From Commensalibacter oyaizuii (lineage in GTDB: Bacteria; Pseudomonadota; Alphaproteobacteria; Acetobacterales; Acetobacteraceae), in contig NZ_JASBAO010000001.1 of NCBI RefSeq assembly GCF_029953265.1, positions 558,001 through 622,000 of the forward strand: 64,000 nt of DNA, in the 5' to 3' direction. Both the position numbers and the translations under genes were made by a program. How positions within the stretch are numbered: position 1 is the stretch's first letter; each line of letters opens with the position of its first letter. A model generated the notes under the pieces. It had not been told where the DNA came from and made no database searches. It saw nothing but the letters and a program-made list of their open reading frames with translations. Below are positions 35,434 through 42,632 of the stretch, in pieces.

Positions 35434-36462
35434 GTGACTAATTTATCAGAAACTATCCCTACTTTAAAGCCAATCATTTTGGATAAAAACAAGATTATTG
35501 ATATTCCGATCATATTGGCACCAATGGCAGGTGTTACTGACTTTCCTTTCAGAAAGTTAGTCAAACAATTTGGTGCAGGATTGGTAGTTTCTGAAATGAT
35601 TGCGTCATGGGCAATGATTCGTGAAAATAAAACTACATTACAAATGGCTGAGCCCATCACTGACGGTTTAAATTCTACTCAGCTAGCAGGATCAGATCCC
35701 CAGGCCATGGCTGAGGCCGCACGTATTGCTGTTGATCATGGTGCGAATATTATCGATATTAATTTTGGCTGTCCTGTTAAAAAAGTGGCGGTGGGTCAAC
35801 AAGCAGGATCTGCTTTGATGCAAGATGAGCAAAAAGCTGCGATTATTTTAGAAGCTGTTGTAAAAGCTGTCGATGTTCCAGTAACTTTAAAAATGCGTAT
35901 GGGATGGGATCAAAATTCACTTAATGCCCCACAACTTGCAAAAATTGCCCAAGAATGCGGTGTAAAAATGGTGACGATACATGGTCGTACACGTCAACAA
36001 TTATACAGGGGAACGGCAGATTGGGCATTTATTCGTCAGGTTAAAGATGCCATTTCTATACCTGTGATTGTCAATGGAGATATTATTGATATTGAAACAG
36101 CAACCCAAGCTTTAAATCTATCGGGTGCTGATGGATTGATGGTTGGTCGTGGATGTTATGGAAAACCTTGGTTTATTGCCCAATTAGGTCACTTTTTTCA
36201 ACATAAATCTATATTACCAGACCCAACTTTACCACAAATCAAAGAAACCATTTTGGCCCATTACGACATGATGCTGTCTTATTATGGTGAACGATCAGGC
36301 GTTCGCCTAGCACGAAAACATATTTCTTGGTATTCATCAGGACTGCATGGATCTGCTGTGTTTCGAGCCTCTATTAACCAAATGGATCGTTCAGCAGATG
36401 TTATTAAAGCAATAAATGAATTCTATGATCTTAATATTCAAAATAGTATGCTAACACATTGA
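35434..36462 (+). CDS. dusB: tRNA-dihydrouridine synthase (NifR3/DusB)
   Basis: FMN enzyme that reduces uridines in the tRNA D loop. The 342-residue protein begins with a GTG at 35434. It shows [14 protein letters not shown], the catalytic Cys113 in [31 protein letters not shown] and [10 protein letters not shown]. It heads the ntr operon, the classical nifR3-ntrB-ntrC order; ntrB follows after 16 bp. An additional role in nitrogen control was never shown for the family. Confidence 0.95.
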
Positions 36463-36478
36463 TTTCATATTTAAGATC

Positions 36479-37567
36479 ATGACGAACACTAAACTATACC
36501 CTCCCTTGGATGGTTATGATATTGTTGAATCTCTGCCAACGCCGTTAATAGTCGTAGATGCTCAATTAAATATTATCTACATCAACGGTGCGGCAGAAGA
36601 TTTTTTAGTTATTTCAAAAAAAAATGTTCAACATTGTGATCTAAAAGCTTTTTTTTCAAGCAATCATTCAGTTTACGACCTTATTAAAAAGGTAAAGGTA
36701 AAAAAAAGAGCTATTGTTGAATATGAAGTTGAAATTTTAACTTATACGCAAATTAGCAAAGAAATTACGCTATATATTGCTCCATTTATAAAAAATGAAC
36801 AATTAATATGTTTGACAATACACGATTATACACTTGCCAAAACAATCGGGGAAAAAGCAAGTTTCCATAAAATATCACGTAGTGTGGCCAATATGGCTGC
36901 TTTATTAGCTCATGAAATCAAAAACCCTTTATCAGGGATAAAAGGGGCTGCGCAATTACTGCAAACGACACTTAATACACAAGATCAAGAATTAACAACC
37001 TTAATTTGCGATGAGGTAGAACGGATAAAAAAGCTTGTTGATCGCACTGCTGTTTTTAACAATCAACATCTACACTTTAGCCTTGTAAATATTTATTCCA
37101 TATTAGCACATGTCAAAAAAATTGCTGAAAATGGCTTTGCTGCTGATATTCCAATTAAAACAATTTACGATCCTTCCTTACCTTTAATTCGTGCTGATAA
37201 AGATCTGTTGATTCAAGTTTTTATTAACTTAATTAAAAACGCAGCTGAATCGATTAAAAATGCTAAAATTCAAGGGGAAATAACATTAATAATAGGGTAT
37301 CAGCCAAATCTCGTTATGAATATTTCTGAAAATAAGAAGCGTGTCACCCTACCTTTGGTTATCATTATTCGTGACAATGGTCCTGGAATACCCGATCATA
37401 TAAAACCTCGTTTATTTGAGCCTTTCGTCAGTAGTCGTCCCAACGGGACTGGATTAGGGCTAGCCTTATGCGGTAAAATCATCAATGATCATGGTGGTAT
37501 TATTGATATTCATAGCCAAAAAGATCAAACTGATGTAAAAATATTTCTACCCCTTACTGATTGTTAA
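36479..37567 (+). CDS. ntrB: Nitrogen regulation sensor kinase NtrB
   Basis: Cytosolic histidine kinase/phosphatase that normally takes its signal from PII and phosphorylates NtrC. The 362 residues comprise an N-terminal PAS domain (about 14-120), the HisKA motif LLAHEIKNPLSGIKGAAQLL with His145, the N box INLIKNAAES, and G boxes DNGPGIPDHI and NGTGLGLAL. All catalytic motifs look intact. It lies 21 bp before ntrC. Its partner here is an unusual NtrC. Confidence 0.94.
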   Translation: MTNTKLYPPLDGYDIVESLPTPLIVVDAQLNIIYINGAAEDFLVISKKNVQHCDLKAFFSSNHSVYDLIKKVKVKKRAIVEYEVEILTYTQISKEITLYIAPFIKNEQLICLTIHDYTLAKTIGEKASFHKISRSVANMAALLAHEIKNPLSGIKGAAQLLQTTLNTQDQELTTLICDEVERIKKLVDRTAVFNNQHLHFSLVNIYSILAHVKKIAENGFAADIPIKTIYDPSLPLIRADKDLLIQVFINLIKNAAESIKNAKIQGEITLIIGYQPNLVMNISENKKRVTLPLVIIIRDNGPGIPDHIKPRLFEPFVSSRPNGTGLGLALCGKIINDHGGIIDIHSQKDQTDVKIFLPLTDC

Positions 37568-37588: not shown

Positions 37589-38986
37589 ATGGTAAATAAA
37601 ACCCCGACAATTCTTGTCGCTGATGATGATCGTTCTATTCGTACTGTTCTAAAACAAGCATTGATACGTGCAAAATATAACGTTCAACTGACAGATACAG
37701 CTACAGAATTATGGGAGTGGGTATGCGCAGGGAAAGGGGATGTTGTTATTACGGATATTTCTATGCCAGATATGAATGGGTTTGAAGTTATTCCTAAAAT
37801 CAAAAAATTAAATCCTGAATTGCCCATTATCGTCATCAGTGCATTGTCAACTTTATCAACTGCCGTTCAAGCTGAAAAAGAAAACGTTTTCGAATATTTG
37901 CCTAAACCTTTTGATCTCGAAAAATTAATCACGACAATTAAGCATGCATTGAATATACCCAAAGATCATCTGGCCCAACATTCGTTGGCAGAAGAAAAAT
38001 TACCCCTTGTTGGTAAGTCATCTGTAATGCAAAATATTTATCGTATGATAGCAAGATTAAGCAATCTTAACCTTAGTATTATTATTTCAGGTGAAAATGG
38101 AACTGGTAAAGACGTTGTCGCTAAGGCATTACACGATTATGGCAACAAAAGAAATGAACCATTTTTAACTGTAAATATTGCTGCTCTTACTTCTGAAGAA
38201 ATTGAACATCTTCTTTTTGGCACTTCTAGTTTAACGAAAGATAACAATGGATATTTGCATCACACTTCCAATGGAACTTTGTTTTTAAATGAAATTGACG
38301 AAATGCCATTGCCCATACAAACACGTTTATTTCACGCACTAGAGCATCAAAATTCTAATAATGATCAGTTTTTAGGACTACGGATTATTTGTGCAACTAC
38401 TAAAAATTTAATAGAGTTAGTGCAAAATGGAAAATTTAGGGAAGATCTATATTATCGTTTAAATGTTGTTCCTATTCATCTACCTTCACTAAAAGAGAGA
38501 ATAGAAGATATTCCTTTGTTAGTACAATATTTTCAAAAAGAAAATGCCAGTACGACAGTGTTTTCAGATACAGCTTTTGATCAATTAAAGCAGTATCATT
38601 GGCCAGGAAATATTCGAGAGTTACAAAATTTAGTTACGAGGCTATCGGCATTATATCCTAATCAAACAGTACAAGACGATTTAGTTGCCAGAAATATACA
38701 AAATTTATCTCATACAAGTAAGAAAAATATAAAATCACAAGAAGACATCCCTTTGTCAGTAGAGATCAAAAGCCATATCCAACGCTATTTTATAGAAAAT
38801 AGAGGACTGCCTATTAACAAGTTGTATGCTTACATGATTGCTGAAGTTGAAAAACCTCTTATTGAACTTACTCTTGCTGAGACAGAAGGCAATCAAATTA
38901 AAGCTGCAACGATCCTTGGAATTAATAGAAATACATTGCGAAAAAAAATAAAAGACCTCAATATTACGTATAAAAAAGATAGTTGA
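37589..38986 (+). CDS. ntrC: NtrC-type response regulator with degenerate AAA+ domain
   Basis: 465 residues: receiver domain with phospho-acceptor Asp56 (VVITDISMPDMNG) and Lys106 (LPKPF), AAA+ domain, and a Fis-type HTH (about 425-460, GNQIKAATILGINRNTLRKK). Walker A reads GENGTGKD (168-175). Two features normally essential for sigma-54 activation are altered. The GAFTGA loop after LFG (209-211) is missing and the loop is shorter, and Walker B reads LFLNEIDEM, with Asn234 where Asp is expected. The second pre-sensor loop (RVGG region) is also shortened. Arginine finger region REDLYYRLN (284-291) is kept. Likely a phosphorylation-controlled DNA-binding regulator that does not work with sigma-54, as known for Rhodobacter capsulatus NtrC. 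Confidence 0.9.
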   Translation: MVNKTPTILVADDDRSIRTVLKQALIRAKYNVQLTDTATELWEWVCAGKGDVVITDISMPDMNGFEVIPKIKKLNPELPIIVISALSTLSTAVQAEKENVFEYLPKPFDLEKLITTIKHALNIPKDHLAQHSLAEEKLPLVGKSSVMQNIYRMIARLSNLNLSIIISGENGTGKDVVAKALHDYGNKRNEPFLTVNIAALTSEEIEHLLFGTSSLTKDNNGYLHHTSNGTLFLNEIDEMPLPIQTRLFHALEHQNSNNDQFLGLRIICATTKNLIELVQNGKFREDLYYRLNVVPIHLPSLKERIEDIPLLVQYFQKENASTTVFSDTAFDQLKQYHWPGNIRELQNLVTRLSALYPNQTVQDDLVARNIQNLSHTSKKNIKSQEDIPLSVEIKSHIQRYFIENRGLPINKLYAYMIAEVEKPLIELTLAETEGNQIKAATILGINRNTLRKKIKDLNITYKKDS

Positions 38987-38998
38987 AGGCTTATTGCG

Positions 38999-41230
38999 TT
39001 GAAAAAAACAAATAAACGTAAACTTATAAATTTTATTGAAAAACTCTCTGGTAGAAAAGCAACCTTAACACTAGTAGCTTTGGCGTTACTATTTGGGGTT
39101 GCTACCTTTATCATCTTATCAGGTGGTATTGTTACCTCACATAAACATTATATTCAGCTTGTTATTTCACTGTTGAATTTGTTCGTTCTACTTTTATTAG
39201 TTGCAACATTGTTTATTCGCATTATGCGTCTGTTTTCAGAACGCAGACGGGGAATGGCAGGGTCAAAACTTCATGTAAAGCTTGTAATGTTATTTGGAAT
39301 TATTTCAACAATTCCAACAATTTTAGTGGGGATTTTCGCCACCATATTATTTCATTACGGCATACAAATATGGTTCAATAACCGGGTGAGCACTGCGTTA
39401 AATGAGGCCTTACAAGCCTCTAGGGGTTACTTACAAGAACATAATGCCAATATACGTACTGAAGCTTTCTCCTTGGCAAATTATATTCAAGGAATGCAAA
39501 ACAATCTAGCTCAAGCAGGGCAAGATCTTTTCGATGATCCCAATGTATTAGATCAAATTCTCGACTCTCAAGCAACATTACGAGGATTAAACGCAGCAAT
39601 AATTTATAATACATCTACGCAACAAGTAGTTGCTTCGGGTGGATTATTAAATAGTTTATCTTATATTAAACAACTGCCACATAACATCACAACAACAATG
39701 ATGACCCATAATGATGTTGCTATTCTTGATTCATCAGATGAACAAACCGTTAGAGCGGCCATTTCATTAAGTGACACGCCGCCATTAATATTATTAATTA
39801 TCAGACCCGTAGATCCCTCAATTCTAAATCATATGTATAAAACCGAGAAGGTCGTTAACCAATATAATCAACTCAGTAATAATCGATCCAAAATACAAAT
39901 TATGTTTGTTATTATTTTTGGATTAATTGCATTATTGGTTTTGGCCGCTGCTGTTTTATTAGGATTATATTTAGCTACGCAAATTGCTCGCCCTGTTGGA
40001 TTGTTAACCCTTGCAGCACGAAAGGTAAGTCAGGGAAATTTAAAGGTCAGTGTTCCAGAATTACGTAAGGACGATGAAATAGCCGATCTATCACGTGCAT
40101 TTAATCAGATGACCAATCAATTGGCTGCTCAACGTACCGAACTTATCGAGGCTAATCGACAAATCGATGAGAGAAGACGTTTTACCGAAGCTGTTCTTGC
40201 AGGGGTCTCCAGTGGTGTTATTGGGCTTGATCGACAGACTGTTATAGAATTACCGAATCGTTCTGCTAGTCAACTTCTAGAAATTGATCTTATTCAATAT
40301 ATTGGACATAAAATTACGGATATTGTTCCTGAATTCACATCTTTATTACAAAAAAATGTGGATATGCCTAAACAAATCCATCAAGAAGAAATTCATATAA
40401 AAACCAAAAGCAGTAGCCGAGTATTTTTAGCTCAAATAGGTCCTGAAATAAGAGGTGCTGAAATTGAAGGATTTGTTATTACTTTCGATGATATTACCGA
40501 ATTACAATCCGCACAAAGAAAAGCTGCATGGGCTGATATCGCCAGAAGAATTGCTCATGAAATTAAAAACCCGTTAACCCCCATTCAATTGGCTGCTGAA
40601 CGTTTAAAGCGACGTTTTTTAAAAGAAATCCAAACCGATAGCCAAATATTCAGTCAATGTGTCGATACTATTGTCCGTCATGTTGGGGATATTGGCCGAA
40701 TGGTTGATGAATTTTCATCCTTTGCGCGTATGCCTCAACCCGTCATGAAGTCTAGCGATCTATCAAGAATTATCCGAGAGACACTTATCTTACAACAAAA
40801 CGCACATCCAGAAATTATGTTCCATGTCAATTTACCCAATCATGGCCCCGAAATTGAATGTGATCAAAGATTAATTAGCCAAGCATTAACAAACTTGTTC
40901 CAAAACGCGGCAGATGCTATTGCTATGATTGCCAAAGAAGGTAATAATCAAACAGATATAAAAGGGAATATATGGATAAGTTTGGAACAAATAGAAAATA
41001 ATATATGCATTTCTGTAACAGATGATGGTATTGGTTTACCAAAAGAGGATAGATTACGTTTAACGGAACCCTATGTCACTCATAAACCAAAAGGCACAGG
41101 ATTAGGACTTGCGATTGTAAAAAAAATTATGGAAGATCATTCAGGATCGTTACAATTAAAAGACCGTGCCGAGGGAAGAGGTACTACATCGATTTTGACT
41201 TTTCAAATACGAGGAAAACATGGCGCATGA
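38999..41230 (+). CDS. ntrY: Sensor histidine kinase NtrY
   Basis: Membrane sensor of the NtrYX pair linked to nitrogen, redox and envelope responses in alphaproteobacteria. The 743 residues start at a TTG (38999) with GAAGG 9 bp upstream. Three N-terminal membrane segments (about 20-45, 53-76, 95-120), an extracytoplasmic region, a further segment near 300-325, HAMP (PVGLLTLAARKVSQGNL), PAS, the HisKA motif IAHEIKNPLTPIQLAAERL with His520, and G boxes DDGIGLP and KGTGLGLAIV. It overlaps ntrX by 11 bp. Confidence 0.94.
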   Translation: MKKTNKRKLINFIEKLSGRKATLTLVALALLFGVATFIILSGGIVTSHKHYIQLVISLLNLFVLLLLVATLFIRIMRLFSERRRGMAGSKLHVKLVMLFGIISTIPTILVGIFATILFHYGIQIWFNNRVSTALNEALQASRGYLQEHNANIRTEAFSLANYIQGMQNNLAQAGQDLFDDPNVLDQILDSQATLRGLNAAIIYNTSTQQVVASGGLLNSLSYIKQLPHNITTTMMTHNDVAILDSSDEQTVRAAISLSDTPPLILLIIRPVDPSILNHMYKTEKVVNQYNQLSNNRSKIQIMFVIIFGLIALLVLAAAVLLGLYLATQIARPVGLLTLAARKVSQGNLKVSVPELRKDDEIADLSRAFNQMTNQLAAQRTELIEANRQIDERRRFTEAVLAGVSSGVIGLDRQTVIELPNRSASQLLEIDLIQYIGHKITDIVPEFTSLLQKNVDMPKQIHQEEIHIKTKSSSRVFLAQIGPEIRGAEIEGFVITFDDITELQSAQRKAAWADIARRIAHEIKNPLTPIQLAAERLKRRFLKEIQTDSQIFSQCVDTIVRHVGDIGRMVDEFSSFARMPQPVMKSSDLSRIIRETLILQQNAHPEIMFHVNLPNHGPEIECDQRLISQALTNLFQNAADAIAMIAKEGNNQTDIKGNIWISLEQIENNICISVTDDGIGLPKEDRLRLTEPYVTHKPKGTGLGLAIVKKIMEDHSGSLQLKDRAEGRGTTSILTFQIRGKHGA

Positions 41231-42632
41231 AATTCTAATCGTTGATGACGAACCTGATATTAGGCTTCTCATCGAAGGGATTTTACAAGATGAAGGATAT
41301 TCAACCCGTTTAGCAGGGGATGCTGATTCTGCGATTAACGCGTTTCACGCCAGAAGACCATCTTTAGTTATTTTAGATATCTGGCTACAGGGGTCTAGAT
41401 TAGATGGTTTAGAAATCTTGAAGTTTATTCAAAGTGAAAAACCAGCTGTGCCAACTATTATGATTTCTGGACATGGAACAATTGAAACTGCTGTTGCAGC
41501 ATTGCAACATGGGGCATATGATTTTATTGAAAAACCCTTTAAATCTGATCATTTGCTTGTGGTTGTAAAACGTGCTCTAGAAGCTGCCAAACTTACCCAA
41601 GAAAATGCTGAATTGCGATTGCGTAGTGGACTAGAGGTTCAACTTGACGGTCAAAGTCCAGCCATTAATACTGTTAAAAGTCAAATAGATCGTGTTGCGC
41701 CTACGGGATCTCGTGTGCTTATCTCTGGTCCACCGGGAACTGGTAAAGAAATTGCAGCAAGATCTATTCATAATTTATCAAAGCGAGCTGACGGACCTTT
41801 CTTGGTTTTGAATTGCGCAATTCTTTCCCCAAATCGTTTCGAAGAAGAATTATTTGGTATTGAAGGTTCTGCAGATGGCAGTCAAAATCGAAGAACAGGG
41901 GTCCTAGAACGTGCTCACGGTGGGACATTGGTCTTAGATGAAGTGGCCGATATGCCTCTTGAAACCCAAGGTAAGATCGTTCGTGCCCTACAAGATCAAA
42001 CCTTTCAACGTGTTGGTGGTTCAACAAGGGTCAAAGTCGATGTAAGAGTGATTGCAACCACTAATCGTGATTTAAATGCTGAAATTGCCGCTGGTCATTT
42101 CAGAGAGGATCTGTATTATCGTTTGGCGGTTGTTCCTCTAAAAATACCCAGCTTAAAAGAGCGTCGTGAAGATATTCCAGAATTAGCTAAATTATTTTTA
42201 AAACGCTGTTCTGAGATGACAGGCTTACCATTAATTGATTTATCAGCTGATGCATTAACGACCTTACAAACCTATGATTGGCCAGGCAATGTGCGTGAGT
42301 TACGTAATTTAATGGAACGGCTAATGATTATGATGCCGGCAAATGTTAATGATGCTATTCGCACAGATATGTTGCCTAATAATATTGGTCAAAATGCGCC
42401 TAGTTTATTGAAAGTTGACAGCCAAACTGATATTATCAGCCTGCCATTAAGAGAGGCCAGGGATCTTTTTGAAACCCAATATTTACAAGCCCAATTAATG
42501 CGCTTTGGTGGTAATATCAGTAGAACAGCAGGTTTTGTTGGAATGGAACGCAGTGCATTGCACAGGAAATTAAAACAACTAGGGGTGACATCTTCAGAAG
42601 AAAAAAATAATAATAATACAAATTCTCAATAA
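41220..42632 (+). CDS. ntrX: Response regulator NtrX
   Basis: 470 residues: receiver with Asp53 (VILDIWLQGSRLDG, the NtrX-typical W-L-Q-G-S), AAA+ domain with Walker A GPPGTGKE (170-177) and intact Walker B VLDE (238-241), RVGG second loop, and Fis-type HTH at the C-terminus (GGNISRTAGFVGMERSALHRK). The GAFTGA loop is absent between LFG (211-213) and GGTLVLDE; as far as I know that is usual for alphaproteobacterial NtrX. Phosphorylated by NtrY. Translationally coupled to ntrY; hfq follows after 30 bp. Confidence 0.94.
   Translation: MAHEILIVDDEPDIRLLIEGILQDEGYSTRLAGDADSAINAFHARRPSLVILDIWLQGSRLDGLEILKFIQSEKPAVPTIMISGHGTIETAVAALQHGAYDFIEKPFKSDHLLVVVKRALEAAKLTQENAELRLRSGLEVQLDGQSPAINTVKSQIDRVAPTGSRVLISGPPGTGKEIAARSIHNLSKRADGPFLVLNCAILSPNRFEEELFGIEGSADGSQNRRTGVLERAHGGTLVLDEVADMPLETQGKIVRALQDQTFQRVGGSTRVKVDVRVIATTNRDLNAEIAAGHFREDLYYRLAVVPLKIPSLKERREDIPELAKLFLKRCSEMTGLPLIDLSADALTTLQTYDWPGNVRELRNLMERLMIMMPANVNDAIRTDMLPNNIGQNAPSLLKVDSQTDIISLPLREARDLFETQYLQAQLMRFGGNISRTAGFVGMERSALHRKLKQLGVTSSEEKNNNNTNSQ

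Follow-up and report, generated by a model that had tools for sequence, protein, structure and literature searches.

A GAFTGA-less NtrC with Asn in its Walker B motif in Commensalibacter oyaizuii, whose genome shows no match to RpoN

The GAFTGA motif is the sigma-54 contact loop of bacterial enhancer-binding proteins (bEBPs), and NtrC proteins that lack it are already known from Rhodobacter capsulatus and Caulobacter. Caulobacter crescentus NtrC, an alphaproteobacterial orthologue with the loop deleted and NtrYX in its locus, acts as both activator and repressor at sigma-70 promoters and needs both Walker motifs, A and B, if the cells are to grow on ammonium, where its D235A variant fails (PMC10274813); hydrolysis can therefore matter even in a protein with no GAFTGA loop. 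R. capsulatus NtrC, as it is cited in the same paper, also lacks GAFTGA and activates sigma-70 RNA polymerase, reportedly through ATP binding and not hydrolysis; more of its loop is deleted than in Caulobacter, and that account reports no natural Walker B change (PMC10274813). The need for hydrolysis is thus disputed between the two, at least as the R. capsulatus work is cited there, and Vibrio cholerae VpsR, a GAFTGA-less bEBP fold at sigma-70 promoters, does not need ATP (PMC10274813), although it differs in being a c-di-GMP binder (title of PDB entry 7v2b) and not an NtrC orthologue. The bEBP paralogues TyrR, DhaR and HupR have likewise lost sigma-54 contact and use sigma-70 (PMC3162934), but they belong to other families and serve other signals.

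We analyzed a 64,000-nucleotide stretch of the Commensalibacter oyaizuii genome, called the window here, whose coordinates are used throughout; all features given with coordinates lie on its forward strand. The genome (2.41 Mb in 7 contigs, listed as 100% complete) comes from a genus with genome sizes of 1.9-2.6 Mb, and the window has 38% G+C. Commensalibacter is an insect-gut symbiont (PMC10149009), and the window bacterium probably is one as well. From open reading frames and synteny, supplemented by Pfam, profile models and motifs, we identified an operon that begins with dusB (35434..36462) and continues with ntrB (36479..37567), ntrC (37589..38986), ntrY (38999..41230) and ntrX (41220..42632), an order kept in 21 of the 21 family genomes examined. 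NtrB is the cognate histidine kinase, with its H box and ATP-binding boxes intact. NtrX, which served as an internal control, has no GAFTGA, as in the other family NtrXs examined, and its GTGKE, DE and FREDLYYR motifs are intact.

The ntrC product is a response regulator of 465 residues with the architecture of an NtrC orthologue, namely receiver, AAA+ and Fis-type HTH domains, and it adjoins ntrB within an ntrBC-ntrYX locus. By Pfam, the receiver spans residues 8-117 (37610..37939) and retains the phospho-acceptor D56 (37754-37756) and K106; Sigma54_activat (140-297) and the AAA lid (302-379) make up the AAA+ region (38006..38713); and HTH_8 (417-456; 38837..38956) is the conserved DNA-binding domain. 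TIGR01818, the ntrC model, was the best model and matched over the full length, yet its score of 458.2 bits lay below the 558.6-bit cut-off; the shortfall fits an altered AAA+ domain, and the case for orthology therefore rests on synteny and on this being the best match instead of on the cut-off. NtrC and NtrX were the sole strong bEBP matches in the window genome.

Alignment located the changes within the AAA+ domain. Walker A (38090..38113) reads GENGTGKD in place of the usual GESGTGKE, with K174 kept and D175 where PspF has E43. The L1 region TSSLTKDNNGYLHHTSN (38222..38272), which lies between LFG (209-211) and GTLFLNE, has no GAFTGA, and compared with G214, a congener that has rpoN, it is 5 residues shorter. 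In Walker B, codon AAT (38288-38290) encodes Asn234, followed by an unchanged E235, and the pre-sensor-1 loop (QNSNNDQFLG, 38348..38377) is about 5 residues shorter than usual and lacks RVGG. The RxDxxxR arginine motif is intact as REDLYYR (38438..38458), and D56, K106, K174, N196, R284/D286/R290 and R343 are all retained. A sequence-only reading of this DNA had already described the missing GAFTGA and RVGG, the loop shorter by about five residues, the Asn codon in Walker B, and the retained receiver, Walker A, arginine-finger region and HTH; each of these held on alignment and residue checks, including the Walker A Lys.

Lacking the contact loop, the protein does not have the features of a sigma-54-dependent bEBP. 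Its ATPase site is complete in Walker A and RxDxxxR and departs from the full set only in Walker B, where NE replaces DE. It groups instead with the GAFTGA-less NtrCs of R. capsulatus and Caulobacter, as an L1-deleted orthologue with phospho-acceptor D56 and Walker A K174. The comparison with Caulobacter goes only so far, since that organism keeps the sigma-54-dependent activators FlbD and TacA and its NtrC needs the Walker B Asp (PMC10274813), whereas in the window genome rpoN is gone and the Asp has become Asn.

Neither the RpoN DNA-binding domain (PF04552) nor the full-length model (TIGR02395) found a match in the window genome, while the DNA-binding domain was matched in 324 of 397 family genomes. 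Within the genus, rpoN is present in only 1 of 9 genomes, that of G214, where it sits between lptB and hpf. We compared this locus in the rpoN-less congeners in which both flanking genes were seen. In G173, G122 and G320, hpf follows about 150 bases after lptB with rpoN absent there; in G246 and G040 the two genes are further apart, still without rpoN. What follows lptB in the window genome is a convergent sensor/regulator pair, again without rpoN. The earlier suggestion that the NtrC changes came perhaps after loss of rpoN is thus borne out, by two RpoN models and by a gene missing from the lptB-hpf locus.

In a tree of NtrX, NtrY and DusB, the eight rpoN-less species form the sister group of G214 (SH-aLRT 100), and G214 is the only one of the nine whose NtrC carries GAFTGA. 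Its glnB-glnA gap contains a -24/-12 box, TGGCACAGATTTTGCA, that matches the consensus at 11 of 12 positions with GG and GC intact, 53 bp upstream of the glnA start. The best -24/-12 match in the glnB-glnA gaps of the other eight species reaches only 8/12. From the genome-wide density in G214 (29 sites with no more than 1 mismatch), about 0.001 such sites would be expected in the gap by chance. Given the sister relationship, a single split in the tree separates G214, with sigma factor, contact loop and target promoter, from the eight species that have none of the three. Counted over whole genomes at the same threshold, -24/-12-like sites number 28 in the window genome vs 29 in G214 and fail to tell these genomes apart, and the three perfect matches of G214 all lie inside reading frames, so that only the site before glnA is informative. 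The sequence-only reading had allowed that relatives with both GAFTGA and D234 might expose a local sequence error. Relatives do carry D234, but GAFTGA is absent from the seven other rpoN-less congeners, which makes the loop loss a feature of the clade and not a local error; as far as the compared sequences go, D234N is species-specific.

We also looked at the glnB leader of the window genome (L213), where an inverted repeat, AAGTAAAA-GCAA-TTTTACTT, lies between a putative promoter and the glnB start and might be an operator or an RNA hairpin. Similar leader repeats (GCAAA...TTTGC) occur in G246, G276 and G040. The repeat was dropped as a candidate NtrC operator because no further copy turned up in the window, and no NtrC target site was identified. 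A sigma-70-like block before glnB, TAGACA-18-TTTAAT, looks alike by eye in nine congeners; the promoter scan did not call it, and it carries no weight here.

The AAA+ domain has evolved differently from the rest of the protein. Between the window and the congener G299, NtrC identity was 0.80 in the receiver, 0.61 in the AAA+ domain and 0.91 in the HTH, as against 0.94, 0.90 and 1.00 for the same domains of NtrX. In the GAFTGA-bearing pair G214-G363 the NtrC AAA+ domain (0.65) was no less conserved than the receiver (0.61), and the domain imbalance is thus a property of the rpoN-less clade. We calculated dN/dS within the genus by the Nei-Gojobori method, with dS often near saturation and the values accordingly rough: 0.10-0.36 for the NtrC AAA+ domain, 0.04-0.08 for its receiver and 0-0.07 for its HTH, compared with 0-0.045 for the NtrX AAA+ domain. 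The NtrC AAA+ domain is relaxed, yet it is not neutral, with dN/dS well under 1. An AlphaFold model of the window NtrC keeps the AAA+ fold (mean pLDDT 85.5), its closest solved structures being NtrX, NtrC1 and NtrC4; because pTM is low (0.57), the domain arrangement in the model is not reliably predicted.

Catalytic residues have changed differently in different species: D234N in the window species, R290C in G246 and in G173/G122, and R290F together with E235D in G320. Walker A K174 and the phospho-acceptor D56 are kept in 9 of 9 species. These losses bear on whether Asn234 could be a sequencing or assembly error in a protein that has truly lost its loop. The change is a single-base difference in one assembly, and it is unique to the window species among 86 NtrCs, the other 85 (the 61 others in the family table and 24 diverse NtrC relatives) all having Asp. 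Nevertheless, an error at this position seems very improbable: further departures lie nearby in the AAA+ domain (NEIDEMP, GENGTGKD, ATTKN), the window-G299 pair has an AAA+ dN/dS of 0.22 compared with 0.10-0.13 in other pairs of the window's subclade, and congeners have lost other catalytic residues.

The same series could mean that the NtrBC pair has had no important role since rpoN was lost and is on its way out, decaying as in more reduced relatives. In G320, the NtrC changes are accompanied by an NtrB (L227) whose ATP-binding boxes are unrecognizable (DNGVADLSDD, ENSIVVKSTIYK) and whose H box has lost the following NP (HEIKNLLSG), apparently a later stage of decay as judged from these motifs; G173/G122 combine R290C with altered NtrB boxes, and many small-genome family members have matches to the window NtrC of NtrX strength only. 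Against this, the ntrC frame is open in 9 of 9 species of the genus, the kinase motifs of the window NtrB are kept, and the dN/dS values point to constraint in receiver and HTH and even in the AAA+ domain. We therefore consider decay of the window pair unlikely. The earlier statement that the gene is not simply decaying stands for receiver and HTH, with their low dN/dS, and needs qualifying for the AAA+ domain, which is clearly relaxed.

What the Walker B change would do to the ATPase can be gauged from PspF. Its D107A variant, at the position of Asn234, has a Vmax of 0.23 vs 39.5 per min, a loss of about 99%, and a Km of 300 vs 250 uM, its affinity for ATP being kept; variants of R168, at the position of Arg290, show a loss of activity as well as of apparent nucleotide affinity (PMC3419264). 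The window protein and its congeners carry natural changes at these positions, but those in PspF are engineered, in a sigma-54-dependent activator. By this analogy the window NtrC should bind ATP and hydrolyze it poorly, although the PspF variant has Ala and the window protein Asn, and the earlier reading of a regulator with no remodelling ATPase is plausible. A Caulobacter-like NtrC would instead work at sigma-70 promoters while still hydrolyzing ATP, Asn234 being tolerated because E235 and both arginines remain. The Walker A and Walker B requirement in Caulobacter speaks for it, as does the retention of K174, E235, R284, R290 and N196 in the window protein. With D107A at less than 1% of wild-type Vmax, and with R290 lost in congeners when PspF cannot work as an ATPase without the corresponding R168 (PMC3419264), we regard this Caulobacter-like alternative as quite unlikely.

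The reading we favor, and hold to be reasonably probable, is that the protein, once a sigma-54 activator, has been retained to regulate housekeeping promoters under the control of phosphorylation, with an AAA+ domain that binds ATP and hydrolyzes it poorly. With the contact loop gone and a key ATPase residue changed, NtrC is probably an ordinary phosphorylation-controlled DNA-binding switch. NtrB would still phosphorylate D56, and phosphorylation would cause NtrC to form dimers or oligomers and to bind DNA with its Fis-type HTH. Its AAA+ domain would bind ATP and act as an oligomerization scaffold with little or no hydrolysis, and NtrC, whether through direct contact or through steric effects, would activate or repress promoters of the sigma-70 type. 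The nitrogen regulon would probably be small, because the genus is left with a single P-II gene, glnB, adjoining glnA; among other genera, G363 has three and G272 two. More tentative, at somewhat under even chances, is the extension to the genus as a whole, in which NtrC would have been re-used as an ATP-binding, hydrolysis-dead, phosphorylation-controlled regulator, with sister species arriving there in parallel through different losses (Asp234, Arg290, Glu235).

We also tallied 58 NtrCs from well-assembled genomes of the wider family. In rpoN-bearing genomes, 19 had GAFTGA, 3 a changed fourth residue and 3 no loop; in rpoN-less genomes the corresponding numbers were 11, 4 and 18. No statistical case could be made for linking rpoN loss with loop loss across the family, since independent events were too few and there were real exceptions both ways. 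Loop loss and rpoN loss are therefore coupled in the window's genus, not strictly in the family. In genus g31 the loop was absent from 12 of 12 sampled NtrCs, all with Walker B intact, and three of these genomes (L077, L078 and L088, that is G374, G295 and G386) have kept rpoN; on this pattern, the break between NtrC and sigma-54 may have preceded the loss of rpoN. Genus g60 has members with GAFTGA intact in genomes where rpoN was not found (L067, L069, L070, L072, L073, L075, L081-L084), while in its rpoN-bearing members the motif reads GAFSGA or GAFAGA; this is the opposite of what would be expected. In genus g73 (L056, L062, L064, L066), rpoN-less genomes encode NtrCs with GAFAGA or GAFPGA, and such changes at the GAFTGA Thr would be expected to abolish sigma-54 contact. 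The complete genome G013 (L091, genus g14) is rpoN-less and has a loopless NtrC with Thr for Arg290.

Our search of the open-licence literature found no paper on NtrC after rpoN loss in these bacteria. What is new here is that the sigma factor itself is missing, that an ancestral-like control exists within the genus, and that catalytic residues have been lost in parallel. Loopless NtrCs of this kind should not be annotated as sigma-54-dependent. The genus offers a natural experiment on the fate of an enhancer-binding ATPase once its sole partner, sigma-54, vanishes: G214 represents the presumed ancestral state, with rpoN, GAFTGA and a -24/-12 box at glnA, and its congeners represent several stages without them. 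Having both within one genus allows the point on which R. capsulatus and Caulobacter disagree, whether ATP must be hydrolyzed or only bound by AAA+ regulators at sigma-70 promoters, to be tested with natural proteins. If the more tentative genus-wide reading is true, the parallel losses would form a natural series with a sigma-54 activator at one end and a plain two-component regulator at the other.
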